64,000 nucleotides of DNA, taken from a virus. The stretch's first letter is position 1, and the number at the start of each line of letters is the position of its first letter. A program made the position numbers and the translations under genes. The stretch is from positions 1 to 64,000 of IMG/VR virus record IMGVR_UViG_3300037277_000110, one strand, 5' to 3'. The notes beneath the pieces are model-generated. The model was not told where the DNA came from. It saw only the letters and a program-made list of their open reading frames with translations, and did no database searches. This document shows positions 1,052 through 58,689 of the stretch, one piece after another.

Positions 1052-1089
1052 CCTGTTTAACCGGTCCCCAGTCCGTAAAATTGCGAGGG

Positions 1090-1105
1090 CTCCCCTTGTG
1101 GGGAG
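1090..1105 (+). other. GC-rich intergenic hairpin
   Basis: CTCCCC (1090-1095) pairs with GGGGAG (1100-1105) across a TTGT loop. No T-run follows, so it is probably not an intrinsic terminator. It may protect or process the mRNA between two accessory genes. Confidence 0.4.
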
Positions 1106-1124
1106 TAAACAAACTTAAACATAT

Positions 1125-3934: not shown

Positions 3935-4416
3935 GGTCAGACCTATATTTCAAGTTTTATCTTACAGAACGTCAAACAGTTATTAATACTTGCATTTACT
4001 TAAACCTATCCGAAACAGCTCTTAAATACTTAGTTGCTTCATGGGTTTATGTAACAAGTAAGAGGACTAAGGAGAACTTGTTTTGTGCTAATGATTTGAT
4101 ACCTATTGTTAAGCTTATTAATCCTGGGTATAAATACGAGCATAAAAGCCTTAAGAATGACGTAATGGACATATTAGAGCAAACCGGGTATATTAAAGTA
4201 GCATATCAAGAACAGCACCCAGGTTCTCCTAAGAAGTTCTATGAGCTTGTTTATGATAAGATCTATGAGTTCTTTAATATATCTCTTGTGTTTCATCAGG
4301 AATACGTAAAGAGGTATAAGATCAAAGGCCCATTTGGTGTGATTCCTAAGCTTAAACAGTATCCTAAAATAAAGCGTGATGTTTTACAACATATTAAGAG
4401 TTTAAAAGGGTTATGA
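3931..4416 (+). CDS. hypothetical protein, possible DNA-binding
   Basis: 161 residues, basic and mostly helical. The start shares ATGA with the upstream stop. The layout of short helices followed by a basic segment (KNDVMDILEQTGYIKVAYQ) is reminiscent of winged-helix proteins, but no clear helix-turn-helix can be proved by eye. It precedes a promoter at 4426-4433. Confidence 0.45.
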   Translation: MRSDLYFKFYLTERQTVINTCIYLNLSETALKYLVASWVYVTSKRTKENLFCANDLIPIVKLINPGYKYEHKSLKNDVMDILEQTGYIKVAYQEQHPGSPKKFYELVYDKIYEFFNISLVFHQEYVKRYKIKGPFGVIPKLKQYPKIKRDVLQHIKSLKGL

Positions 4417-4425
4417 TTTAAAAGC

Positions 4426-4433
4426 TAAATTTG
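4426..4433 (+). promoter_or_regulatory. Bacteroidetes-type -7 box
   Basis: TAAATTTG, a full match to TAnnTTTG, lies 10 bases before the ATG of the small zinc-finger gene at 4444. It would give a very short 5' leader. Confidence 0.5.
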
Positions 4434-4443
4434 TAACAAAAAA

Positions 4444-4587
4444 ATGGCTATTAAACTGTACCCTGAAGCTTGTATATATTGTGGAAATAAAGCATATCAT
4501 ATAAAAAAAGTGGATAAATATGAAGTGGGATTATGCTTGAAGCACTTTAAATTAACAAATAAAACAATCTTAAAAGTAATAAAATAA
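4444..4587 (+). CDS. small zinc-finger-like protein (47 aa)
   Basis: A 47-codon frame with CIYC near residue 10 and CLKH near residue 31, a CxxC...CxxH arrangement typical of a small zinc finger. It has its own promoter-like box just upstream and is followed 4 bases later by another Cys-rich gene. The target is unknown. Confidence 0.6.
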   Translation: MAIKLYPEACIYCGNKAYHIKKVDKYEVGLCLKHFKLTNKTILKVIK

Positions 4588-5390: not shown

Positions 5391-6680
5391 ATGATGAAAA
5401 AACTTGAAACATTAACAAAAGAACAAGAAGACTTAATCCCAATAATCCGTCAAAAATGGCTTGATGAATTTTACAATAATCAGGAAATAGATAAACAAAA
5501 AGCTATTGAACAAATAACTTGGCTATATGAATTTTGTGGTAAAAAGAAGCCTACGATATTTTTTATGGATTCTCCATTAGGATCTCAAATAATAGCCAAT
5601 ATCTGGGCCAATATCGGGGCCAATATCTGGGACAATATCGGGGACAATATCCGGGCCAATATCCGGGACAATATCCGGGACAATATCGGGGCCAATATCT
5701 GGGCCAATATCTGGGCCAATATCCGGGACAATATCGGGGCCAATATCGGGGACAATATCTGGGCCAATATCGGGGACAATATCCGGGCCAATATCGGGGC
5801 CAATATCCGGGACAATATCGGGGCCAATATCCGGGCCAATATCGGGGCCAATATCCGGGACAATATCGGGGCCAATATCGGGGCCAATATCGGGGCCAAT
5901 ATCCGGGACAATATCCGGGCCAATATCGGGGCCAATATCCGGGACAATATCGGGGACAATATCGGGGACAATATCGGGGACAATATCGAATATAGTCAAC
6001 CTTCCTATTATGCTAACATTTCAGACTATGGATGGGTTGGATTTTATGATTATTTTCAATCATTAAGTCATTTTTCAGAATACGATTGGTCAAACTTTGT
6101 AAAATTTAAAACATTACTACAAACAGGAATATATGAATTGTTAACTTTTGAAAATGTTTGTATTGTTTCATTGAAACCAAAAGTAAAACAAGACGAAAGA
6201 AATAGACTGCATTGTGAGGATGCCCCGGCTGTTTTATTTAAAGATGAATTTGCGATGTACTTTTGGCATGGTATATTTGTTCCTGAAAAATGGATTATGA
6301 ATAAAGAGTCAATAACAAAAGAAGACATCATGAAAGAAACTAATGCTGAAAAACGTAGATGTCTTCAGGAAATACTTGGTTCTAATTATGCTAAGTTATT
6401 GGATATAGAATTAATTGATTCAGATACTGACCAATACTCATATCCAATTGAACTTTACAGGACAAAAGAAAAAGACTCGCTTATTGACGAGTTTATTTAT
6501 TTTCTTCATGTAACTTGTCCATCGACCAAAAGAGAGTATTATTTATGCGTTCCTGAATGTAAAAATTGTTGGGAAGCCAAAAGTTGGACTTTCCGGAATG
6601 AAAAGATCGAAATACGGCACGGTGACTGTGCATTAGTTAATCTTAAAAAAGAATTTAATCAACCAATTTACGAATCTTAA
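5391..6680 (+). CDS. DUF6745-like protein with 33 tetrapeptide repeats
   Basis: 429 residues. The N-terminal 68 residues are helical. Residues 69-200 consist of 33 tandem tetrapeptides of the form [A/D]-N-I-[G/R/W], encoded by a 12-bp minisatellite. The C-terminal half ([21 protein letters not shown] and an RHGDCALVN ending) resembles the DUF6745 family found in bacteria and phages, a name I recall from memory. In the family the repeats may form a regular solenoid. The function is unknown. The partner gene at 6692 resembles one that I remember travelling with this family. Copy number is probably unstable. Confidence 0.75.
5595..5990 (+). repeat. 12-bp minisatellite, 33 in-frame copies
   Basis: The unit is G[C/A]C AAT ATC [G/T/C]GG, keeping the frame across 396 bp and encoding [A/D]NI[G/R/W]. 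Variation is confined to the first and fourth codons. The regularity also opens long repetitive frames on the opposite strand (reading PDIG or SPIL units), which are by-products of the repeat. Confidence 0.95.
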
Positions 6681-48096: not shown

Positions 48097-48118
48097 CAAA
48101 TTTAATGTTTTATAACAT
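48097..48118 (-). promoter_or_regulatory. dyad-type late promoter
   Basis: On the minus strand TAAATTTG (48097-48104) abuts the dyad ATGTTTTATAACAT (48105-48118). The next gene starts at 48070. It is divergent from the tRNA-operon promoter, 24 bases away. Confidence 0.65.
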
Positions 48119-48142
48119 ATAGTTTTTTTAATATATTTTTAG

Positions 48143-48150
48143 TATGTTTG
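48143..48150 (+). promoter_or_regulatory. tRNA-operon promoter
   Basis: TATGTTTG is a full TAnnTTTG match. It lies 5 bases from the leader ATG, so the transcript should begin at or very near the start codon (leaderless). Confidence 0.7.
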
Positions 48151-48154
48151 CCTT

Positions 48155-48235
48155 ATGAAAACACAAACACTATATTGTCTCTATTTATCGTTGTCAAGTT
48201 ACTTTAGTTTCTTGAAGAGGCAATATTATGTTTAA
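48155..48235 (+). CDS. leader peptide of the tRNA operon
   Basis: 26 codons. After MKTQT, codons 6-20 (48170-48214) read L-Y-C-L-Y-L-S-L-S-S-Y-F-S-F-L, only amino acids whose tRNAs are encoded just downstream. The codons are CTA, TAT, TGT, CTC, TAT, TTA, TCG, TTG, TCA, AGT, TAC, TTT, AGT, TTC and TTG, so every one of the seven tRNAs has at least one cognate codon. The last codons overlap the left half of an antiterminator. The peptide is probably not functional itself; its translation would be the sensor. Confidence 0.75.
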   Translation: MKTQTLYCLYLSLSSYFSFLKRQYYV

Positions 48236-48255
48236 TTACATAAGACTAAACTATA

Positions 48256-48287
48256 AAGCCTCTTGAAGAAATTTGAGAGGCTTTTTT
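48256..48287 (+). terminator. attenuator terminator before the tRNAs
   Basis: A perfect 8-bp stem with a 12-base loop is followed by a run of six T (48282-48287). It lies 7 bases before the first tRNA. Confidence 0.85.
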
Positions 48288-48293
48288 ATTTAT

Positions 48294-48373
48294 GTTCCCT
48301 TGGTGTAATTGGCAGCCACGGTAGGTTTAAGCCCTACTCCTTCGGGGTGAAAGTTCGAGTCTTTCAGGGAATA
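48294..48373 (+). tRNA. tRNA-Leu (anticodon TAA)
   Basis: Acceptor GTTCCCT/AGGGAAT, anticodon stem GTAGG/CCTAC with loop TTTAAGC (anticodon 48328-48330), a short variable arm CC-TTCG-GG, and T-loop TTCGAGT. Discriminator A; CCA is not encoded. It reads TTA and TTG. Confidence 0.9.
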
Positions 48374-48379
48374 CTAAAT

Positions 48380-48452
48380 GCTTGAGTAGAGAATTGGTAT
48401 ATCGGTCTGACTTAGGATCAGACGCTTGTGGATTCGAATTCCACCTCAAGCA
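48380..48452 (+). tRNA. tRNA-Leu (anticodon TAG), short variable region
   Basis: Perfect acceptor GCTTGAG/CTCAAGC, anticodon stem TCTGA/TCAGA with loop CTTAGGA (anticodon 48413-48415), T-arm GTGGA/TCCAC. The variable region has only 5 bases, unlike normal bacterial tRNA-Leu, so its charging identity should be verified. Confidence 0.8.
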
Positions 48453-48459
48453 CTAAAAT

Positions 48460-48532
48460 GGAGGTCAAGCTAATCTGGTGAAAGCACGGGTCTGAAAAAC
48501 CTGAGAGTTTGGATCGAAACCAAAGGTCTCCA
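48460..48532 (+). tRNA. tRNA-Phe (anticodon GAA)
   Basis: Acceptor GGAGGTC/GGTCTCC (two wobbles), anticodon stem CGGGT/ACCTG with loop CTGAAAA (anticodon 48494-48496), T-stem TTTGG/CCAAA. The T-loop is ATCGAAA, lacking the usual first T. Confidence 0.85.
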
Positions 48533-48541
48533 CAAATATTT

Positions 48542-48625
48542 GGAAGGTTTGCTAGCGGCCTAGCAATCGGTCCTGAAAACCGAGATACAAGGTAACACTT
48601 GGGGAATCGACATCTCAACCTTCCG
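48542..48625 (+). tRNA. tRNA-Ser (anticodon TGA), C at position 33
   Basis: Acceptor GGAAGGT/ACCTTCC, anticodon stem TCGGT/ACCGA with loop CCTGAAA (anticodon 48574-48576), and a long variable arm CAAG/CTTG typical of Ser. Position 33 is C instead of the nearly universal T. Discriminator G fits Ser. Confidence 0.8.
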
Positions 48626-48631
48626 CGATAT

Positions 48632-48702
48632 GGGATAAATACCAGGGCAGTAAGGACGGTCTGTAAAACCGAACCATGAACTTTCGAGTAGTTCTTATCC
48701 CA
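48632..48702 (+). tRNA. tRNA-Tyr (anticodon GTA), short variable region
   Basis: Acceptor GGGATAA/TTATCCC, anticodon loop CTGTAAA (anticodon 48663-48665) on CGGT/ACCG, T-arm GAACT/AGTTC with TTCGAGT. The variable region is short, whereas bacterial tRNA-Tyr normally has a long one. Confidence 0.85.
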
Positions 48703-48707
48703 CTAAT

Positions 48708-48776
48708 GTCTGGTTACACGGTACAAAGACAGTCCGCAAAACTGATTCCAGAGTGGTTCAACTCCACTACCAGACT
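48708..48776 (+). tRNA. tRNA-Cys (anticodon GCA), C at position 33
   Basis: Acceptor GTCTGGT/ACCAGAC, anticodon stem CAGT/ACTG with loop CCGCAAA (anticodon 48736-48738), T-arm AGTGG/CCACT with TTCAACT. Discriminator T, as expected for Cys. Position 33 is C. Confidence 0.8.
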
Positions 48777-48780
48777 CTAT

Positions 48781-48863
48781 GGAAAGCAAAACCGGAAGGC
48801 CCGGTAACTTCCTGCTAAGAATGTTGATCCGAAAGGGTTTGGGTTCGATTCCTATACTTTCCG
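48781..48863 (+). tRNA. tRNA-Ser (anticodon GCT)
   Basis: Acceptor GGAAAG/CTTTCC, loop CTGCTAA (anticodon 48814-48816), a long variable arm GATCC-GAAA-GGGTT and T-loop TTCGATT. The anticodon stem TTC/GAA continues as AAC/GTT only if one T is bulged, so folding may be weakened. Confidence 0.8.
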
Positions 48864-50423
48864 CTAATGTGGATAATTAGGCCAAGTCTCAATATATTTC
48901 CTTAACATATTAGCATCCATTGATTTTACCCGGTTTATTTCTGATATATTAATTAATTCATTGCCATTTTTATGTTTACTATCTATACCGATAAAATGAT
49001 CTAAATGATAAAGAAATCCTGATACATATCCCCATTTTAATCCTAAAGTTCGAATCCGATAAAATCTTTCTGCATCTTCAGGAGCATGAGAAATAAAACC
49101 TTCATTTTCTCCACCTATTGATAAATATTCTTTTTTATTAAATATTACTGCTCCTCCATGACTTTTTTTACCATTAAATGACATATTGTGAAAAATTCCA
49201 AAAAAACTATTAAACAATAAAATATCTTGGTTTAGTTGTTCATAAAAACATCGACTCATGTGAATAAACGTTCCATCATAAGGATAAACAACTGCATAAC
49301 CTTCCCTAATCATTTTAACAGCTTCAAATATCTGATCAGGATTAACAAACACATCTGCATCCCAATTGATAACTATTGGAGTTTGTGTTAAAACGGTAAT
49401 ATTATTTAACATCCTTGTTCGATGGAAATTAGGATACCCAAACCAGATATATTCATCCGAATCTACATCTGAAAAATCATGAGTTCCTTGCTCACCTACT
49501 ATTATATTGGTATTAAAATTAGCCCTGATAAACTTGATTGTTAATTCTAAATTTTCAACCCGATCCTGACTATCGTTTTTAACCGGTATAATAAATGTAA
49601 CATCCTTTAAATCCCTTTTACCTTTAAAATAAAGACTCTTTTGGTAAATTGATCTACTTTCCCACCTACCTGGGTAAAAGTCTTTACCAGTACACGTTTT
49701 AGCTAGTGGGCCGGCAAATAAACATTCGGGTCTGATCACTTTTACATCCTTATTGTAAATTTCAGCTATTTTAGCAGCCCACCAAGAGAATGTCGAATTG
49801 GCTATGATTAAATTATTAAACTGACTCATTAAAGCCAAGTGTTCAATATCTGAACAGCCTTCTACATATTCTACATTGTCATGATTTCCAAGCATTTTTT
49901 TAGCAATAGTATAATCATCAGTAAATACATAGAAAGTTTTCGTTTTATCCTTAAAAAATTCAATGTAATAACTCGGTTGTATCTGTACATAATTTTTGTT
50001 CCCAACATAATCACCTAATCGTAAATGGACGGCCCAATCATTTTTACCCGGTATAAAGTCTGTCCGTTCAAATATAGAGTCTAAAAATCCCTGTTTAAAT
50101 TTAAATTCGTTTTTAATTTCATCCCAAACATCTTCAAAATATTTTTCAGATTGCCAATAGCCTCTAATATCTGTATTAAGTGTAAAGTAATTTTGTATTG
50201 GCTGTAGAAACATAGGATGAAAATCAAAATTAAGTTCTCTTATCTCATCATTAATCTTTATGTCTGTATCTACATTCCAACTCATTTGGAAATATTTTAA
50301 ATAATCCCATAATGGTAATGCCCATTGAGTATTATTTCGCTTTGATAACGACTTAATAAAAGCAATCTCAAACAAGTTATTACCTAATCTCCCGTATGGG
50401 AATTGTTTCATAAGTAAAGTCAT
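48864..50423 (-). CDS. bifunctional glycosyltransferase: GT11 fucosyltransferase-like plus GT2
   Basis: 519 residues in two domains. Residues about 5-235 carry the GT11 alpha-1,2-fucosyltransferase motifs YGRLGNNLFEIA, VHLRLGDY (about 133) and ANSTFSWWAA (about 209). Residues about 275-519 are a GT2-type transferase with VTFIIPVKN and a DAD metal site (about 355). The fusion implies two successive sugar transfers by one protein. It is last in the glycan operon, coupled by a 4-base overlap to a GT6 gene. The product may be a virion or host surface glycan. Confidence 0.85.
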   Translation of the reverse strand: MTLLMKQFPYGRLGNNLFEIAFIKSLSKRNNTQWALPLWDYLKYFQMSWNVDTDIKINDEIRELNFDFHPMFLQPIQNYFTLNTDIRGYWQSEKYFEDVWDEIKNEFKFKQGFLDSIFERTDFIPGKNDWAVHLRLGDYVGNKNYVQIQPSYYIEFFKDKTKTFYVFTDDYTIAKKMLGNHDNVEYVEGCSDIEHLALMSQFNNLIIANSTFSWWAAKIAEIYNKDVKVIRPECLFAGPLAKTCTGKDFYPGRWESRSIYQKSLYFKGKRDLKDVTFIIPVKNDSQDRVENLELTIKFIRANFNTNIIVGEQGTHDFSDVDSDEYIWFGYPNFHRTRMLNNITVLTQTPIVINWDADVFVNPDQIFEAVKMIREGYAVVYPYDGTFIHMSRCFYEQLNQDILLFNSFFGIFHNMSFNGKKSHGGAVIFNKKEYLSIGGENEGFISHAPEDAERFYRIRTLGLKWGYVSGFLYHLDHFIGIDSKHKNGNELINISEINRVKSMDANMLRKYIETWPNYPH

Positions 50424-51100
50424 CGGATTACATCTTTTTTAGTGATAGCTATTATTTTAGGCTTCATTTGTTCTATTCCGTAAGTCACCCGTTCTGGCAT
50501 AGTTTCAGGCATACAGTATTCAGGAGTTAAGATCACATCCGGCGGATTTAATGCATAATACCTTTGAATATAAGATTCATCATGAAATATAGGTGTGTGT
50601 CCATACTTTTGATCGGTATCTATCCACAGTGTTATTTGGCCAGCCATTTTAAGATAATCCGATCCACCGTTAAACCCACCAGCGAAGTAATACTGGATCT
50701 TATTTATCGACACAAAAGACTGAGCTAAAAACTTTTTATCAAGTATAAAACCTAGTTTTGGACGATTAAAAAACCCAGGGTGTCTTGTGGCTACTAATTT
50801 ACCTAATATTTCATCACCTACAGTATCAACTATTAACGAGTCACTATCAAGATAATAATAATAATCACATTCTCCTTCAAATCCATTGGTTATGATGTGG
50901 TAACGATATAAAGTAGGGAAAGGCCAAGGTTTATGTTCCTGATAAATTTTAGTTACACCATCAATTTTTTTATCCGAATCCGTAAATAGATAAATAGTCT
51001 TTTCGTGATTGGTCAGGAAATATTTATTTATCCCTTTGACGAGTTCGGGAATAAAATCAACATATTTATTGGTAGCTATTAGAAATATGGCTATTTTCAT
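50420..51100 (-). CDS. GT6 (ABO-type) glycosyltransferase
   Basis: 226 residues. FTDSDKK, YYYLDSDSLIVD (about 85-95, DxD metal site), YYFAGGFNGGS (about 140) and PIFHDESYIQRYYA (about 170-183) are the hallmarks of GT6, the family of blood-group A/B transferases and alpha-1,3-galactosyltransferases. Bacterial and phage members lack the membrane stem, as here. It would add alpha-linked Gal or GalNAc, usually to a fucosylated acceptor, which fits the adjoining GT11 domain. Confidence 0.85.
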   Translation of the reverse strand: MKIAIFLIATNKYVDFIPELVKGINKYFLTNHEKTIYLFTDSDKKIDGVTKIYQEHKPWPFPTLYRYHIITNGFEGECDYYYYLDSDSLIVDTVGDEILGKLVATRHPGFFNRPKLGFILDKKFLAQSFVSINKIQYYFAGGFNGGSDYLKMAGQITLWIDTDQKYGHTPIFHDESYIQRYYALNPPDVILTPEYCMPETMPERVTYGIEQMKPKIIAITKKDVIR

Positions 51101-51849
51101 AATTTAGTATGTAAATCAAACCAGCTACCTTGATCTAAAGATTCGCCACAACAATTCGGTTTCCCGTAGAAATAGTGAATATACTGAAGTAATATCTCGT
51201 CAACTCCTACCCATTTATCTGGAAGTTCTTTGCCAAATAAACCTGAACAATATCCATCGAATTTATAATCAACGTATTCACCTTCGAGAGCTGGATTCGA
51301 ACATTTAGTCAAATGATTCTTTCCCTGGTCCACTATTTGGAATTTAGTATAACCTATTTCTAAAAAAGCATGAATTACATCCAGTGGGTTTGCAGTACCA
51401 TCAACTAAGTTATTAGGAGTAAGCAATTCAGCACTCATATATTGTGGTAGCTTCATACTTTTAAACTGACGTATACACATTGCATCTTGACCTTCCACAT
51501 CTATCTTGACGTAATATACATCCTGCCCGAACATACAATAATGGGTATACATTGAACATCCGTCAACCAATATTTCTTCGATTTCATCCGGATATTTACT
51601 ATTCCAATTTGGGTTAACTGAAGCCCAATCAGTATGAATTTTATGTATCCATAAAGATAATTCATTTTCGTCAGAGACAGCATACTCTCTTAAAATGAGT
51701 TGACCCGAATCAAGATAAGACCCTAGCCTTTTTATAATTTCATGGCAACTATGTGGATTCGGCTCAATAGCTATGACCTGAAATCCCTTTTTTAGATAAA
51801 ATTCGGTATCCGATCCGTTATGTGCCCCAATGTCGTATATTAGTTTCAT
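51097..51849 (-). CDS. FkbM-family methyltransferase
   Basis: 250 residues. IYDIGAHNGSDTEFYLKKG and VIAIEPNP (S-adenosylmethionine-binding) and KIDVEGQDAMCI (about 130-143) are FkbM motifs. Such enzymes O-methylate sugars or peptides. The gene overlaps its neighbours by 4 bases within the glycan operon, so a sugar on the same glycan is the likely substrate. There is a second FkbM-like gene at 55731. Confidence 0.85.
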   Translation of the reverse strand: MKLIYDIGAHNGSDTEFYLKKGFQVIAIEPNPHSCHEIIKRLGSYLDSGQLILREYAVSDENELSLWIHKIHTDWASVNPNWNSKYPDEIEEILVDGCSMYTHYCMFGQDVYYVKIDVEGQDAMCIRQFKSMKLPQYMSAELLTPNNLVDGTANPLDVIHAFLEIGYTKFQIVDQGKNHLTKCSNPALEGEYVDYKFDGYCSGLFGKELPDKWVGVDEILLQYIHYFYGKPNCCGESLDQGSWFDLHTKL

Positions 51850-51989
51850 GCTCGTGATATTTTACTTAAAGTATTATTCAACTTGTCGATAGCTTCTTTT
51901 TCCGAATCCCCTAATTCAAAATAATCATACCCTTTAAAAGTTATACAAGCAGTCCATTTATTTTGATGTTTTAAAAATTGTGTTTTCAT
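51846..51989 (-). CDS. small hypothetical protein (47 aa)
   Basis: A 47-codon frame from ATG 51989, ending in an ATGA overlap with the FkbM gene. It is a small charged alpha/beta protein (KWTACITFKGYDYFELGDSE) with no known family. Tight coupling on both sides supports it as real. Confidence 0.55.
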   Translation of the reverse strand: MKTQFLKHQNKWTACITFKGYDYFELGDSEKEAIDKLNNTLSKISRA

Positions 51990-51991
51990 AC

Positions 51992-52234
51992 TTAAATTTT
52001 TACATATCCTTCTTCAAATTCAATAGCAGGAGACCATGATTGATATCCACCTTTATAAACAACATAATATCCACCTTCCTTTGGTTTATGTTTATTTACA
52101 TATTCAGGATCAACTGTGAATGAGTTATAATTTTCATCTTCTGGGAAAATTGTTGCATCTCCTAAGTCTGGATGAAAAACTATTGATTTAATCTTCAATG
52201 CCCATACTTCTTTATGGCATTTATACTTTGGCAT
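51992..52234 (-). CDS. conserved phage protein (PKYKCHKEVWALKI family)
   Basis: 80 residues from the second Met (52234). An upstream ATG at 52255 adds seven unconserved residues. YKCHKEVWALKIK, VDPEYVNKHKP and GGYYVVYKGGYQSWSPA are signatures of a short protein found in very many phages. Its role is unknown. Confidence 0.8.
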   Translation of the reverse strand: MPKYKCHKEVWALKIKSIVFHPDLGDATIFPEDENYNSFTVDPEYVNKHKPKEGGYYVVYKGGYQSWSPAIEFEEGYVKI

Positions 52235-52273
52235 TTCTCTACCAGTTGTTATCATATTTTTTAGTTTTTAAAA

Positions 52274-52969
52274 TTATCGCATACGTTTTAAGAGCATTTG
52301 GTACTGATCTTCAATAATATCGAAGCCATTAGCCAGAAATACCCCGATTGAATACTTAGCTTTCCCAAAGCAGCTTTTTTCTCCATATTCAACTATCGGA
52401 ACCGGGCATCTAACGTCATCAATAAGAACATATCCGCCTACCTTTACAAGGTTATTCCGAATAATTACTTCAGCATCCCGTTTGTGCAACATGGCTGATT
52501 CTTCCAAAGGAGTTACATCACCTACATCCATATAAATTAAGTCAGCAGGTTCTTCCATGTTTTGAAGGAATATTGCACTGTCAGATACATGATACATAAC
52601 ATTTTGGAATTCCTTAGTTATTGTCCTGCATACTTCGATATGATTTGAATTTATATCAACCGTGTGAATAAATGAATTTGGAAGTATTTCGGCAAATACA
52701 CGAGTAAAACAACCTGCTCCCCAATCCCATGATTCTGGATTGTCAAGTTTCCAATATTTTTTATCATAACTCATACAACCTTCAAGTCCGCCATTAACGT
52801 ATGACCGGGTTGTGCCAAGTTCAATAATAATCGGATGAGACGTATATAAATCCAGTATGATTTCATTAATAACTTTTATAAAAGTATGCGCTCGTGACAA
52901 TCTTTTTCGTATATCATGACTATAATCATACTGACAACCTTTGTCTAAGAATTCAAAATATTTATCCAT
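52274..52969 (-). CDS. SAM-dependent methyltransferase-like protein
   Basis: 231 residues. IIELGTTRSYVNGG (about 47-60), FIHTVDINSNHIEVCR and DLIYMDVGDVTPLE, then GGYVLIDDVRC, follow the order of class I methyltransferases acting on small molecules or sugars. The glycine-rich loop is weak (GTTRS). It shares the operon with glycosyltransferases and overlaps the upstream gene by 25 bases. Confidence 0.65.
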   Translation of the reverse strand: MDKYFEFLDKGCQYDYSHDIRKRLSRAHTFIKVINEIILDLYTSHPIIIELGTTRSYVNGGLEGCMSYDKKYWKLDNPESWDWGAGCFTRVFAEILPNSFIHTVDINSNHIEVCRTITKEFQNVMYHVSDSAIFLQNMEEPADLIYMDVGDVTPLEESAMLHKRDAEVIIRNNLVKVGGYVLIDDVRCPVPIVEYGEKSCFGKAKYSIGVFLANGFDIIEDQYQMLLKRMR

Positions 52970-54009
52970 TTTTGTTGGTTTTGATTAAATAATTCTTCTG
53001 CTTGTTGGTATACTTCATCGGTGTTTATATCAATTGAATGTAGTTCTTCGAATGAACTAAAATACTTGATAAATTTACTATTTTTTTCTCTATAAAATTC
53101 GCATAATCCTAAATTATCTTCACAATAACTCATGTTCTGAAACCAGTAATCTTTCTTTTTTAAAAGATTATGCATGAATTCTTTAGAAGGGACATAGTAA
53201 GCCACTCCGCAAGATAATGCATCCCAAAGAGCTATTGAATTCCATGTGTAAGGAAGGTGAATTACTGCCTTAAAATGAGCTAAAGCATCTTTATCTTTAT
53301 ACCTACCCGTTTTAACGTCTATACCTTTATTTAAGCATAAGTCTCGTAGATGACATATAGCGTCATTAGTGTATGTCGGGACATAGTACCCAGATTTATT
53401 ATTTATAATATTTCCTTTAATCATAGACCAACGTCTTTTAGTATATTCCCCTGCCATATGCCCTTCTTCATCAAACAACATGAAATTTACTTTTTCTCCA
53501 TCATAAGACGATTCGGTTGGGTTAGTAAAATCTACCATACTATAATATGGTTTACTCACCGGATTTATTATAGTATGAACAACCGTTCCTTTGCCCATTG
53601 CATATACTGATTCAAAAATGTTATTAGCTACAATCCAAACGTTTTTTTCAGTCGCGGACCATTTCATGAGTTCATAATATTCTTTATCGGGAAACGGATT
53701 TAGGATATCTAAAGAATCGCCATAGTCAAACCGATTACAGATATAAACTATAATTTTACCTTTAAATCCATTTTGTAAAAATATCCGGGATAAAGGAGCT
53801 GTATCGGAAGTAATGATCACATCAAAAGTGTTGTAAAAATCCTTGTGTTCTTCCCATGCTTCAGTGGCCCGATCCTTGGTCATATTGTAAAAATAACCAT
53901 CTTCTCCTGAAGTGACTATTTTAGTTGTTAATTCGATGTTAGGTAGATCTAGTACACTTTGGATGGCATTACTACACCCAATATGGAACGTTAAATGAAG
54001 TATTTTCAT
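52945..54009 (-). CDS. glycosyltransferase, GT-B-like
   Basis: 354 residues. An N-terminal MKILHLTFHIGCSNAI, a SDTAPLSRIFL segment and a C-terminal stretch with ALWDALSCGVAYYVPS, the Gly/Ala loop near the sugar-nucleotide site of GT4-like enzymes, suggest a two-domain glycosyltransferase. The donor is unknown. It lies in the middle of the operon. Confidence 0.6.
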   Translation of the reverse strand: MKILHLTFHIGCSNAIQSVLDLPNIELTTKIVTSGEDGYFYNMTKDRATEAWEEHKDFYNTFDVIITSDTAPLSRIFLQNGFKGKIIVYICNRFDYGDSLDILNPFPDKEYYELMKWSATEKNVWIVANNIFESVYAMGKGTVVHTIINPVSKPYYSMVDFTNPTESSYDGEKVNFMLFDEEGHMAGEYTKRRWSMIKGNIINNKSGYYVPTYTNDAICHLRDLCLNKGIDVKTGRYKDKDALAHFKAVIHLPYTWNSIALWDALSCGVAYYVPSKEFMHNLLKKKDYWFQNMSYCEDNLGLCEFYREKNSKFIKYFSSFEELHSIDINTDEVYQQAEELFNQNQQKWINILNS

Positions 54010-54185
54010 ATTATTTTACCACTTGCCTGAAGAATAATAGCAGATAAACAAGTTAATAATATGGAAATCCACCATTCTTTAGTAAACATTAGTAATTTAC
54101 TATTTTTATCACGCTTGAAATCAATAGCACATCTCATTACAAATATACCTATTATTGTTAATACAAATTGAATTAATATTCTCAT
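54006..54185 (-). CDS. small two-pass membrane protein (59 aa)
   Basis: 59 codons from ATG 54185, with ATGA-type overlaps at both ends. Two hydrophobic segments (ILIQFVLTIIGIFVM and WWISILLTCLSAIILQ) flank a basic loop. It may anchor or couple the surrounding transferases to the inner membrane. No family is recognised. Confidence 0.6.
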   Translation of the reverse strand: MRILIQFVLTIIGIFVMRCAIDFKRDKNSKLLMFTKEWWISILLTCLSAIILQASGKII

Positions 54186-55072
54186 ATCATTTTCATTATT
54201 GCGTTTATATTATTGATATATGTATGTTTCTCACAAACAAAATTAAATAACCACTTCTTCCGTTCTACTTCTTCCTTCCGATCTTCAGCCTCATAATAAA
54301 GCATATAAGCGTCTGGATTGTATATCACATTATGATCAAAAAACTCATAAGCCAAAGAATTTGTAGTTAATCCATCCAATCCATAAGATATAGCCTTAAA
54401 TAATCTACAAGGGAGCATTTGATTGCCCATTTGATTTGGGCCTTGGATAGCCGGAGCCATATATCCGTTCCGTAAATACATGGCCTCATCTTCAATACTA
54501 ATCCAACCCTTTAAATGATTCAAACCATCACCTCTACTTCCTGGGCTATAACCTCCACCTGCATATACTGGATGCCCATTTTCCAAACAAGCCCTCTGGA
54601 ATTCAAGTAATGGTTGGTAATTACCGTTTTCTTCAGGATTATTTACAGTTCCTAAGTAATAAACTAGTGAATTACGAAGTTTAGTTACATCGTTGATATT
54701 AAACTCGTGTGGAAGTAATGGTGATCCCCAAGGGAAGAAGAGACAATCATCCTGTACGGCAATTCCATGAGCCACATGTTCCATTTTTAAACAACCCCTC
54801 TGATAGTATTGGATATTTATGTGTCTACCGATTCCTTCAAGTTTAGGACAGTTATGAAGGATATAAGTACAATCTTTTCGTAAAGGCATATTTTTGCAAA
54901 CTTGGCCTTCAGTAAGTATTATACTGTCACTAAAATTAACACTACTTATATCATCATTATCGTCCAACCAATATGTTTCAAATCCTAAAAACTCAAACGC
55001 TCTATAAAATCCGTAGTGGATAAAACTATGAGAATGAGAATATAACTTATGTCCGTAAATGAAAACTTTCAT
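54182..55072 (-). CDS. glycosyltransferase-like protein
   Basis: 296 residues. An N-terminal VFIYGHKLYSHSHSFIHYG, HVAHGIAVQDDCLFFPWGS and a C-terminal NQMLPCRLFKAISYGLDGLTT that resembles the donor-binding loop of GT-B enzymes. The exact family is uncertain. It overlaps the next GT2 gene by 4 bases. Confidence 0.55.
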   Translation of the reverse strand: MKVFIYGHKLYSHSHSFIHYGFYRAFEFLGFETYWLDDNDDISSVNFSDSIILTEGQVCKNMPLRKDCTYILHNCPKLEGIGRHINIQYYQRGCLKMEHVAHGIAVQDDCLFFPWGSPLLPHEFNINDVTKLRNSLVYYLGTVNNPEENGNYQPLLEFQRACLENGHPVYAGGGYSPGSRGDGLNHLKGWISIEDEAMYLRNGYMAPAIQGPNQMGNQMLPCRLFKAISYGLDGLTTNSLAYEFFDHNVIYNPDAYMLYYEAEDRKEEVERKKWLFNFVCEKHTYINNINAIMKMI

Positions 55073-55734
55073 TTGAGTCCTTTTTGTGCAAGTTTCTTAT
55101 AATACTCTGTATTTTGATGTAGTTCACTCAACATAGAATCTGACCTTTCGGTATGCCTATAAATAACTTCATCTATGTATTTAAACTTAGCTCCAATCTT
55201 AAATAGCTTACATATTAAATTGTAATCTTCGTAATGTGAACCACTTAATACAGTATAACAACCTGCTTTTTCTACTGTTGACTTTCTGAAAAGAGAAGTA
55301 CACCAAACTTGGTTATCCCTTAACAATCCTTTCCTTGTAACAGAATAAGATCCCGGTGGGCGATGAATAACACCATCATTTTTAGCAGTAAGATTACCAA
55401 ATACTACATCATTATCTCCCATTGCATTCATCATTTTACCCAATACATCATGATATAGCCAATCGTCAACATCGAGTGGTAAAATATAATCGTATTTAGC
55501 TAATTCTATTCCATGATTCCGTGTTGCAGCTAATCCAATATTTTCTTTTTGAACAATATATTGATTAACCATTGCAAAAATAAGTTTGAATGTTTCTACA
55601 TCCGGTAATTTTGTAGATCCATCATCAATTACAATAATTTCTATCGGAAAATCCTGAAGTAAACAACTAGCCAAAGCCTTTGGAAGATATTGACTATCAT
55701 TAAAAAATGGGATGATTATTGATACTCCGTTCAT
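55069..55734 (-). CDS. GT2-family glycosyltransferase
   Basis: 221 residues. VSIIIPFFNDSQYLPKAL, IIVIDDGST, GLAATRNHGIELA and LPLDVDDWL (about 95-101, metal-binding DxD) define a GT-A fold family 2 enzyme. It uses a nucleotide-sugar, and the acceptor is unknown. No membrane segment is present. Confidence 0.85.
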   Translation of the reverse strand: MNGVSIIIPFFNDSQYLPKALASCLLQDFPIEIIVIDDGSTKLPDVETFKLIFAMVNQYIVQKENIGLAATRNHGIELAKYDYILPLDVDDWLYHDVLGKMMNAMGDNDVVFGNLTAKNDGVIHRPPGSYSVTRKGLLRDNQVWCTSLFRKSTVEKAGCYTVLSGSHYEDYNLICKLFKIGAKFKYIDEVIYRHTERSDSMLSELHQNTEYYKKLAQKGLK

Positions 55735-56363
55735 ATTTTATGGTGTTTATTTGAAGTAAAAAGTGCATTTGCTTGCCATTTACCCAACTCATCACAGCCG
55801 TTCGGTTCAATAAATACCTGTTCAAATCCATGACTTGTTAATAAGTTGTTAATATCATCGTATTTTGATGTTCCTTTACGGAATTCCTGGTAATTAATCT
55901 CTGTGTAGATATATTTTATTTTGTCTAATGGAGAGTGTTGAAGAATGTAATACTCAAATCCCTCTACGTCTAACCACAAAAAGTCAATTGAAAGAATCAT
56001 AAATTCATTCATAAATGTATCCATTCGTATTGTTCCGACTATAGTTTCTTTTTCTTCACCTACATACTGTTTAAAAAAATCACTGGCCGGAAGTAAAGAA
56101 CTAGCACCACCATCACCATTTTCCTCAAGATAGAAATTAGCCTCACCATTTTTATCCGATAAAGCATACGGGATTACAGTGATATTTTCAACATCCTTAA
56201 CCAAATTTCGAAGTTTTAAGAATAGATCATCAGTAGGTTCAAAGGTGTATATCTTAGCTTCAGGAAACATTTTATGGAGTTGGATAGTATCTTCTCCAAG
56301 ATGTCCCCCGGCTTCAACTATAGTGCTTAAATTAAGCTTTTTTAGCTCTTCGTAGATTCTCAT
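55731..56363 (-). CDS. FkbM-family methyltransferase (second copy)
   Basis: 210 residues. STIVEAGGHLGEDTIQLHK, IYTFEPTDDLF and DFLWLDVEGFEYYIL match FkbM motifs. It is only distantly similar to the FkbM protein at 51097, so they probably methylate different positions or sugars. It has 4-base overlaps with both neighbours. Confidence 0.8.
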   Translation of the reverse strand: MRIYEELKKLNLSTIVEAGGHLGEDTIQLHKMFPEAKIYTFEPTDDLFLKLRNLVKDVENITVIPYALSDKNGEANFYLEENGDGGASSLLPASDFFKQYVGEEKETIVGTIRMDTFMNEFMILSIDFLWLDVEGFEYYILQHSPLDKIKYIYTEINYQEFRKGTSKYDDINNLLTSHGFEQVFIEPNGCDELGKWQANALFTSNKHHKI

Positions 56364-57124
56364 AGTTGTAAAAGTTTTTTAATGAAATCCTGTTTTTTAT
56401 TGTGATATTCTTGAGGTTTATTATCCCAATTACTACCTCCACGGTAATGTAACCAACAATCCTCGAATATTTCCATTCCTAGATCTAATGTATAAAATGG
56501 CTGGGCATGTTCCGGAAATAAGGATATAAATTCATTAACTATAATACTGGTATTGGTTATTTTTCTCCATCGACAAGATGGGTTGTTCTGAAGGTAATAA
56601 TACGTAAAACCTCCAACATCCAAAGGGGCCTTCCAAATCATACCCGGTCCAACATCAAAATTTCGAATATTTGGCATCGTATCATTATCAAATATCATGA
56701 AGCAATTCCAAATGTATTCGATAATCTTATATCCACCATCCCTTGATTGTGCAATACCCGCCAAATCATATCCTTGTATAAACTCATTAAAACTAAAGTC
56801 TTTGAAAAGAATAAGATCAGAATCGACTATTACCGAAATGCAATTTGAATCCTTGGATATTATTTCATCTATACACCATTGTAAAGGAACAGCACAAGAA
56901 AAACAAGCATGAGAAAAGTCTTTTTTTCCTGCGTCAATGCTTTTAATATTTAAATGCTCACATTGGTACTCTATATTTATGTAAAGTGCTTCAGAACTGG
57001 CATTATTAACAACTATAAACTCAAAGTCATCCTTAATGAACTTATGAAAAGAATAGTTTTGCCATTCAATAAACTGAGGTGATTTGTCGGCAAACGTGTA
57101 TATTTTTACTGGTTTAAAGCTCAT
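56360..57124 (-). CDS. glycosyltransferase-like protein (GT-A)
   Basis: 254 residues. VKIYTFADKSPQFIEWQ at the start and ISVIVDSDLILFKD (about 98-111), a DxD-like metal site, suggest a GT-A-type enzyme. A terminal HYRGGSNW resembles acceptor-binding ends of capsule-type transferases. The family is not certain. It overlaps the next gene by 11 bases. Confidence 0.6.
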   Translation of the reverse strand: MSFKPVKIYTFADKSPQFIEWQNYSFHKFIKDDFEFIVVNNASSEALYINIEYQCEHLNIKSIDAGKKDFSHACFSCAVPLQWCIDEIISKDSNCISVIVDSDLILFKDFSFNEFIQGYDLAGIAQSRDGGYKIIEYIWNCFMIFDNDTMPNIRNFDVGPGMIWKAPLDVGGFTYYYLQNNPSCRWRKITNTSIIVNEFISLFPEHAQPFYTLDLGMEIFEDCWLHYRGGSNWDNKPQEYHNKKQDFIKKLLQL

Positions 57125-57947
57125 ATTTAGATTTGTTAGGGAACCGGTTCATAATCCATTCTTTCAAGTATTGTTTACCAGATAAGTCCGTAGCCATCAA
57201 ATTAAGTCCCATGTCATTGTAGTTTACCCAAGTTTTATTTTGTACGGCCTTTTCTATTTCTTCAAGGGAATTTGACATGTATGAGGCTACTTTACCATGA
57301 TCAAAGTAAAAACCGGCTTTGTAATCCTTTATCCTTAATACATCAGGATTAGCTTCTTCAGTAAAATAATTAAAATACATGGTAGCTAAAGCGTATGGAA
57401 CACTTAAATTCCCAAAAGGAAATTGAGTAAATAAATAAACTAACTTAACACTACTATAAATACGTGGTAAATGAGTTTCAAAATTATACAATCGTTCAGT
57501 TATCACATACTTTTCATGGAGTATATCTATTGAAGTATTTATAGTTCGACCATGCTTATCAAAATTACGAACTTGATAAAAACTACCATCTTCAATTTCT
57601 AATGGTATATTAGGAATACTTCTAACATTTAATTCCTTTAAAAGCAAAACATCATCATACATATAAACAAAATATCCTTGATTATCTGAAGCAAAAGTTT
57701 TTACTTTATTCAATGTATCAAAGAAATTCTCGTAATCCAATTTACCGTTATTCTTTTTATTCAACCATTCCGGGTAATACCGTTCTGCCGGATGTACCAT
57801 TACATTAGTTAACCATTCTGGAACCACATTGCCATAAATATGTATTTCATAGTCCCCTTTGAGATTTTCATCAAGGGATCGTAGACAATAACGAAGTTCA
57901 TTGTTATCCCAATTACTACCAGTGCCAAGCGGTATGAGTATCTTCAT
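57114..57947 (-). CDS. glycosyltransferase-like protein (capsule type)
   Basis: 277 residues. MKILIPLGTGSNWDNNELRYCLRSL and FVYMYDDVLLLK (about 92-105), a DD metal-site candidate, follow the pattern of proteins related to GT-A capsule transferases that act in surface glycan synthesis. No signal or membrane segment is seen. The precise family is not certain. Confidence 0.55.
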   Translation of the reverse strand: MKILIPLGTGSNWDNNELRYCLRSLDENLKGDYEIHIYGNVVPEWLTNVMVHPAERYYPEWLNKKNNGKLDYENFFDTLNKVKTFASDNQGYFVYMYDDVLLLKELNVRSIPNIPLEIEDGSFYQVRNFDKHGRTINTSIDILHEKYVITERLYNFETHLPRIYSSVKLVYLFTQFPFGNLSVPYALATMYFNYFTEEANPDVLRIKDYKAGFYFDHGKVASYMSNSLEEIEKAVQNKTWVNYNDMGLNLMATDLSGKQYLKEWIMNRFPNKSKYEL

Positions 57948-57951
57948 TTGA

Positions 57952-58689
57952 TTAGTTTAAAATTCCCAATATATCTGTCCTCTGTTGATATCTTAATGGC
58001 ACATCACTAAAAATACGATGCATGTCATTTTCAAGTAAATTATTCACCTGATTACGGAAAATAACTTTATCGTTAATCTGAATATCCATGTCATCATATT
58101 TCTTTTTATTTTTGTAAGATTTATTTTTATTTCCGACAAACCTAGTAATTCCAACCTGTTTGTCGATATGCTCAAATGGTAGGATTAATTTTGTTTTTGG
58201 AAGGTTGGATATTTCTTCAAAAAGACAGTAACCGTTTAAAGGAATAATTTCATCTCCTGAAAATCCTTTTTCATTTAAATCAAATGAATTCCAATCAATT
58301 CTTTTTGCCACAATCAAATTCTGATAATCCATTATTCTATATTCCTTATCTTCAACCTGAATGATAGGACAATGTAGTCCTGAATGGAAATCAAACCAAA
58401 CCATATCTCCATATTTTAGTTCCATGTCGGTTTCCCAATCCATCTTTTTACAGTTTAAACTTTCAGGAGTTTTCCTAACTATCCCATACCGGTCTAAATG
58501 AGCTGATTGATCTGTAGCTTCAATTCCATCCTTATCCTTACAAACAAAAAACTCAGGGTCCTTAACGATAATGAGTCCAGATGGTCTTACTTCTTCTTTA
58601 GGTATAACGCATTCAATTATAACATTATTACCTATAGGTTTTAATCGGTCAAATTCTTTTGCTGTTAGTTGTATGTAATCGTGTGGCAT
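57952..58689 (-). CDS. co-chaperonin GroES-like protein, two-domain
   Basis: 245 residues. LKPIGNNVIIECVIPKEEVRPSGLIIV, a YGIVRKTP turn, LKYGDMVWFDFHSG and EYRIMDYQNLIVAK are the Cpn10 layout. A second, weaker copy (GYCLFEEISNLPKTKLILP, VGITRFVGNK, INDKVIF) follows at about 130-245. Phage GroES-like proteins such as T4 gp31 replace the host cofactor to fold capsid protein. Here it is near the start of the glycan operon. Confidence 0.75.
   Translation of the reverse strand: MPHDYIQLTAKEFDRLKPIGNNVIIECVIPKEEVRPSGLIIVKDPEFFVCKDKDGIEATDQSAHLDRYGIVRKTPESLNCKKMDWETDMELKYGDMVWFDFHSGLHCPIIQVEDKEYRIMDYQNLIVAKRIDWNSFDLNEKGFSGDEIIPLNGYCLFEEISNLPKTKLILPFEHIDKQVGITRFVGNKNKSYKNKKKYDDMDIQINDKVIFRNQVNNLLENDMHRIFSDVPLRYQQRTDILGILN

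Follow-up and report, generated by a model that had tools for sequence, protein, structure and literature searches.

The window analyzed here comprises 64,000 nucleotides of a 73.8-kb virus record, and its terminase is 22–29% identical to those of Bacteroidota podoviruses, namely Cellulophaga phi46:3, phi19:3 and phi38:1, the Flavobacterium elemo phages, and Maribacter phage Panino. An array of seven tRNA genes, in the order Leu, Leu, Phe, Ser, Tyr, Cys, Ser, extends over positions 48294–48864 and is the sole plus-strand occupant between minus-strand genes. tRNA-Leu(TAA) (48294–48374) and tRNA-Leu(TAG) (48380–48453) were called by ARAGORN at default settings and by Rfam, tRNA-Phe(GAA) (48460–48533) by Rfam and relaxed ARAGORN, and tRNA-Tyr(GTA) (48632–48703, with a short variable loop), tRNA-Cys(GCA) (48708–48777) and tRNA-Ser(GCT) (48781–48864) by relaxed ARAGORN. 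The divergent tRNA-Ser(TGA) (48542–48625) was assigned by reading its cloverleaf by eye in the sequence. Default ARAGORN detected two of the seven, relaxed ARAGORN six and Rfam three; these tRNAs are divergent, and default gene finders overlook most of them. The 3′ end of the last tRNA meets the end of a convergent glycosyltransferase gene (48864–50423, minus strand). A long minus-strand cluster of glycosyltransferase- and methyltransferase-like genes (48864–57947) adjoins the terminase region, and a GroES-like co-chaperonin is encoded on the same strand at 57952–58689.

A promoter and a short open reading frame (ORF) lie upstream of the array on the plus strand. The promoter box, TATGTTTG at 48143–48150, matches the Bacteroidota −7 element TAnnTTTG perfectly, and the ATG of the ORF (48155–48235, 26 codons, encoding MKTQTLYCLYLSLSSYFSFLKRQYYV followed by a stop) begins 4 nt 3′ of it. 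In Flavobacterium johnsoniae, the last G of the −7 element stands at −5 and transcription starts 4–5 nt downstream of the box (PMC6847099); by this spacing, +1 falls on or beside the A of the ATG at 48155, which predicts an mRNA without a 5′ leader (leaderless). Leaderless mRNAs form a small minority, 5.5%, in flavobacteria (PMC9723704), which counts against an attenuation reading of the locus. Codons 6–20 (48170–48214; CTA TAT TGT CTC TAT TTA TCG TTG TCA AGT TAC TTT AGT TTC TTG), translated as LYCLYLSLSSYFSFL, specify Leu, Tyr, Cys, Ser or Phe at all 15 positions. This run is the longest of its kind in the six frames of the window, the runner-up having 12 residues, and a matching leader codon exists for each of the seven anticodons of the array, with the CTC codon fitting only via extended wobble. 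The sequence-only reading had drawn attention to the promoter box, the 26-codon ORF, its restricted codons and their match to the anticodons, and each of these observations was reproduced. Two single tRNAs elsewhere in the same phage have no leader. A 21-nt direct repeat (81%) has one copy upstream of the promoter (48099–48119) and the other where the leader ORF ends (48222–48242).

The leader can adopt alternative structures. Segment 1 (48165–48182) pairs with positions 48216–48233 of segment 2 (48208–48233) in a 1:2 protector hairpin; positions 48208–48226 of segment 2 pair with segment 3 (48253–48271) as an antiterminator; and positions 48255–48267 of segment 3 form the 5′ arm of an intrinsic terminator with segment 4 (48272–48284), which together with its T-run (48282–48287) covers 48272–48287. 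In RNA, the terminator has a helix of 13 bp (−15.5 kcal/mol) and a T6 run that ends 6 nt before the first tRNA. A terminator and a mutually exclusive antiterminator (48208–48221 with 48258–48271, 13 of 14 pairs) had been proposed from the letters alone; both stood, and the antiterminator extends to 48208–48226/48253–48271 at 84% pairing. The 1:2 helix had been missed. It is present in the minimum free energy structure of the leader, and finding it completes the trp-type set of four attenuator segments (1:2, 2:3, 3:4). This structure, comprising 1:2 and 3:4, has −39.2 kcal/mol and a z-score of −5.3, and none of 200 shuffled sequences folded equally well. No leader family of Rfam scored above its gathering threshold; Phe_leader (RF01859) reached 24.6 bits vs 55 and His_leader (RF00514) 21.7 vs 49.

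We folded the RNA left uncovered by a ribosome placed at each codon of the window leader. With the ribosome at codons 5–12, segment 3 pairs with segment 2 and the terminator is gone, even at equilibrium; before segment 4 has been synthesized, the 2:3 pairing persists up to roughly codon 17. A ribosome at the stop codon leaves the terminator as the sole structure, and the terminator is also back when no ribosome is present.

This anatomy and folding behavior, together with the comparative evidence given below, make it highly likely that the tRNA operon is under ribosome-mediated (leader-peptide) transcription attenuation and senses a shortage of its own products. The window's tRNA genes would then probably stay off unless those tRNAs are in short supply at the ribosome. 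Transcription would begin on or beside the leader ATG. A ribosome that reads the 15 Leu, Tyr, Cys, Ser and Phe codons promptly would cover segment 2 as it arrives at the stop codon; the 3:4 terminator would then form, and RNA polymerase would halt ahead of the first tRNA. A shortage of any one of the charged tRNAs would make the ribosome stall and cover segment 1, segment 2 would pair with segment 3, and the seven tRNAs would be transcribed in the absence of the terminator. Since any one shortage would release the whole array, the operon would behave as an OR-gate sensor that detects when its own products are scarce. The obvious candidates for emptying the pool are host shut-off and tRNA-cleaving defences (PMC10264068, PMC11555353). 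We infer that this regulation operates in vivo, and that its natural trigger would be the loss of host tRNAs during infection, through decay or defence nucleases.

This design recurs in many Bacteroidota viruses, both related and unrelated. Single TerL or MCP proteins retrieved no close relatives from IMG/VR or GTDB genomes, and BLAST with the window array returned only single tRNAs of unrelated phages, two of which led to informative phages of about 640 kb. Searches of phage records with the leader peptides (tblastn) gave no match beyond the query's own phage, as expected because leaders differ between phages. Further units were found with promoter-only patterns, which consist of the promoter and start codon and contain no leader residues; two scans had leader residues in the pattern, and one scan had residues of the window's leader type. 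Most promoter-pattern matches were ordinary genes. The tRNA-linked short ORFs from the promoter-only scans match their arrays equally well wherever the array is complete. Relaxed ARAGORN and inspection by eye were used to call tRNAs, a simple cloverleaf caller having missed Ser and Cys tRNAs.

In total, 34 leader–terminator–tRNA units were identified, distributed over 18 phage genomes or contigs; among these are the cultured Cellulophaga phages phi38:1 and phi4:1, Maribacter phage Panino, Tenacibaculum phage Gundel_1 and two phages of about 640 kb. The window and the 33 further units all have a short ORF with start and stop codons directly behind a promoter. The box-to-ATG spacing is 4 nt in most of the other leaders, a value built into the promoter patterns that recurs in units found otherwise (the second leader of G007, phi4:1 and both Gundel_1 leaders); the remaining units have 5′ leaders of about 18–58 nt. 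In bacterial genomes, a Tyr/Ser/Asn/Cys-leader pattern, a scan confined to this one leader type, gave the architecture in only one of 58 matches, on a 79-kb contig binned as Lacinutrix that is probably a phage.

In relatives, the amino acids are split over two or three modules. The distant relative Panino has three, each with a terminator immediately 5′ of the array: leader MKTKGNTFSWFNYSNCSDCNC precedes Tyr, Ser, Ser, Asn, Trp, Phe and Cys; leader MKTQRLHQELEQP precedes Pro, Glu, Gln, His, Leu, Leu and Arg; and leader MRAATGIAIIGRTKDK precedes Ala, Lys, Ile, Gly, Asp, Thr, Val, Arg (TCT; assigned by eye) and Met. The same three modules occur in phi38:1, Calle_1 and phi4:1, and Gundel_1 has two modules. 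In the two phages of about 640 kb (L525 and L526), the leader–terminator–tRNA design recurs with H/F/W/K and R/S modules.

Quantitatively, amino acids of a unit's own array account for 77% of leader codons 5–15 across the 34 units, compared with 30% (sd 5, maximum 52%) in 100,000 permutations, with the reservation that many leaders are homologous within a class, so that units are not independent. For tRNAs present in an array, the leader contains the corresponding residue in 166 of 179 cases; for tRNAs that are missing, it does so in 78 of 501. The true leader–array pairing was the best pairing in all 11 genomes with at least two leaders. Under strict wobble rules, a unit's own array can read 184 of 242 control codons, and Arg codons fit the isoacceptor in 8 of 8 cases (CGN before Arg(ACG), AGA before Arg(TCT)). 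Rare NCG codons are preferred in control runs (TCG in 15 of 34 vs 10% in genes, CCG in 7 of 13 and GCG in 5 of 9, with p-values that come out too small since leaders of the same class are homologous) and perhaps sharpen stalling.

Isoacceptor swaps, gains and losses, involving Asn, Asp, Leu, Phe, Cys and Arg, are usually accompanied by a change in the leader. Three contigs of one sample illustrate this: leader SLYLSFCYSL stands before Tyr, Phe, Leu, Ser, Ser, Cys and Leu; SLYLSFCDSL before Tyr, Asp, Phe and Leu; and SLYLSLSLSLSS before Tyr, Leu, Ser, Ser and Leu. Phe and Cys are missing from both array and leader of L364 and present in those of its sister L353, and L352 has an Asp tRNA together with a D codon in its leader. 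A module of contig L355 contains Leu and lacks Asn, and its leader, FSFCLSYWLSFY, contains L and lacks N. The Asn tRNA of Gundel_1 belongs to its second module, and N codons are found in that leader (NNLHIQQNNLP) and are absent from the first (LYSYSCFSSWF). Contig L350 distributes the amino acids between modules quite differently, and its leaders still match: QHNAFYFQPMAF precedes Pro, Met, Ala, Tyr, His, Phe and Gln, and LRTLELCLWLLEE precedes Glu, Arg, Leu, Trp, Cys and Arg. Leaders thus accompany arrays, and a different tRNA set brings different leader codons. Relatives that keep the tRNAs and lose the leader or the pairing had been named as the finding that would speak against attenuation, and the opposite was found in many phages; these covarying leaders support the interpretation of a tRNA operon under leader-peptide attenuation.

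The same comparison bears on chance. T-rich DNA favors Phe, Leu, Ser, Tyr and Cys codons, a caution raised from the outset, and the window holds other L/Y/C/S/F runs of 10–12 codons, so an accidental run and a fortuitous repeat beside an ordinary terminator might have sufficed. This explanation fails because arrays for other amino acids have leaders matching their own sets, rich in P/E/Q/H/L/R, A/K/I/G/D/T/V/R, H/F/W/K or R/S, and no permutation reached the observed leader–array match. These differently composed leaders rule out a chance origin of the F/L/S/Y/C run and refute the caution, and we regard coincidence as next to impossible.

A few units depart from the pattern. In G002, just tRNA-Arg and a protein gene come after a leader for I/N/T/G/K/S/V/D/R; the G003 leader reads Ser and Cys, and Ser and Cys tRNAs were not found in its array; and no leader of this kind precedes one G006 array or the array of the crAss-like phage cr116_1. 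On the minus strand of L350 (2844–3080), leader MQAIIINTGIKSNGTVDSRRS and a terminator stand before tRNA-Arg(TCT) and a gene for a large protein alone, which may be what is left of a module after loss of its tRNAs.

A terminator precedes the array in all units folded, and in nearly all of them its 5′ arm pairs upstream when a ribosome sits on the control codons, the pairing being lost just past the last one. For the first 23 units, the switch between stalled and finished ribosome averaged 0.65, whereas upstream-shuffled leaders gave 0.18 and a set mean never above 0.28; in G002, the predicted switch is weak in two of three leaders. At equilibrium, folding of the full RNA favors the terminator in many relatives even with a stalled ribosome. 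Antitermination would there have to be kinetic, the antiterminator forming first; this is the order of events in the read-through of classical attenuators.

That the terminator is favored in many folds, and that phage genes are often separated by intrinsic terminators, would also fit constitutive insulation or a processing signal, the leader encoding a small protein in its own right. Such an arrangement is nevertheless quite improbable. The leader is the sole content between promoter and terminator, and the 6 nt from T-run to first tRNA are insufficient for a separate promoter. The peptide tracks the tRNA set and shows little conservation in other respects, and the 2:3 pairing stops at the point that a ribosome would cover on moving off the control codons. 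Direct binding of uncharged tRNA by a T-box-like riboswitch was also considered, as T-boxes likewise couple tRNA charging to termination. They differ in binding tRNA without translation, in structure and in their targets (synthetases and biosynthesis), and the leaders carry several amino acids each, with control codons in frame behind an ATG. Neither a T-box nor any other curated riboswitch was matched in Rfam. Together, these points rule out the T-box reading, to which we attach a vanishingly small probability.

Leader-peptide attenuation thus remains the preferred reading, and its closest known counterparts are the enterobacterial attenuators trpL, hisL, pheL, ilvL and thrL. They share with the phage units a short ORF with diagnostic, rare control codons, mutually exclusive 1:2, 2:3 and 3:4 helices, and an intrinsic terminator that precedes the initial structural gene. 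The leaders of ilvL and thrL, like those of the phages (typically 4–9 amino acids), combine several amino acids. The units described here differ in being phage-borne and mostly leaderless, without a Shine–Dalgarno sequence, and, because the regulated genes are tRNA genes, the sensed molecule would be the product itself. Leader-peptide attenuation has also been proposed for amino-acid operons of Flavobacterium psychrophilum (PMC9723704), which share host phylum and mechanism with the phage units but are cellular biosynthetic operons without tRNA genes.

The identity of the sensed signal deserves separate consideration. Classical leaders sense amino acids, and a missing and an uncharged tRNA are indistinguishable to a leader; the operon might therefore respond to amino-acid starvation rather than tRNA loss, the array serving as a general translation aid. 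We consider this unlikely, though it is the most credible of the alternatives. Extra tRNA would be no cure for an amino-acid shortage, the loop would close only if the amount of tRNA is sensed, and the modules combine amino acids that appear biosynthetically unrelated.

Why phages carry tRNA genes has been an open question for about 50 years (PMC10264068). In the portions consulted of that study and of PMC11555353, phage tRNAs substitute for host tRNAs destroyed by tRNA-cleaving defences; evasion there involves tRNA identity and anticodon-loop changes, and those portions contain no regulated expression or sensor. The statement that no phage tRNA array with such a sensor has been described agrees with our search of open-access full texts, in which we found no attenuated tRNA operon of phage or bacterial origin. 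Leader-peptide attenuation itself is known; what is new, as far as the open-access literature goes, is its target, an operon making the tRNAs that its leader reads, and this would be the first described tRNA operon under such control. A self-reading attenuator tells what the phage monitors, namely a shortage of exactly these tRNAs, and favors on-demand replenishment over constitutive codon compensation. The units would also form a natural set of multi-input tRNA-shortage sensors with known specificity, and Cellulophaga phi38:1 and phi4:1, Maribacter Panino and Tenacibaculum Gundel_1, as cultured phages with the design, allow tests. Whether Bacteroidota phages follow a general strategy, in which self-reading tRNA modules stay off in healthy cells and the matching module is released upon tRNA loss through defence nucleases of the host or through host decay, a counter-defence triggered by the damage itself, is in our judgment evenly balanced.

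Minor features were also recorded. The window contains a type-P3 twister ribozyme (1054–1121, plus strand; 54 bits, exceeding the Rfam threshold) and a gene for a protein with a long run of degenerate repeats (5391–6680, plus strand). tmRNA-like genes lie within phage tRNA arrays in L089 (27557–27889; ARAGORN) and, with similar sequence, on the minus strand of L357 (about 4340–4500).
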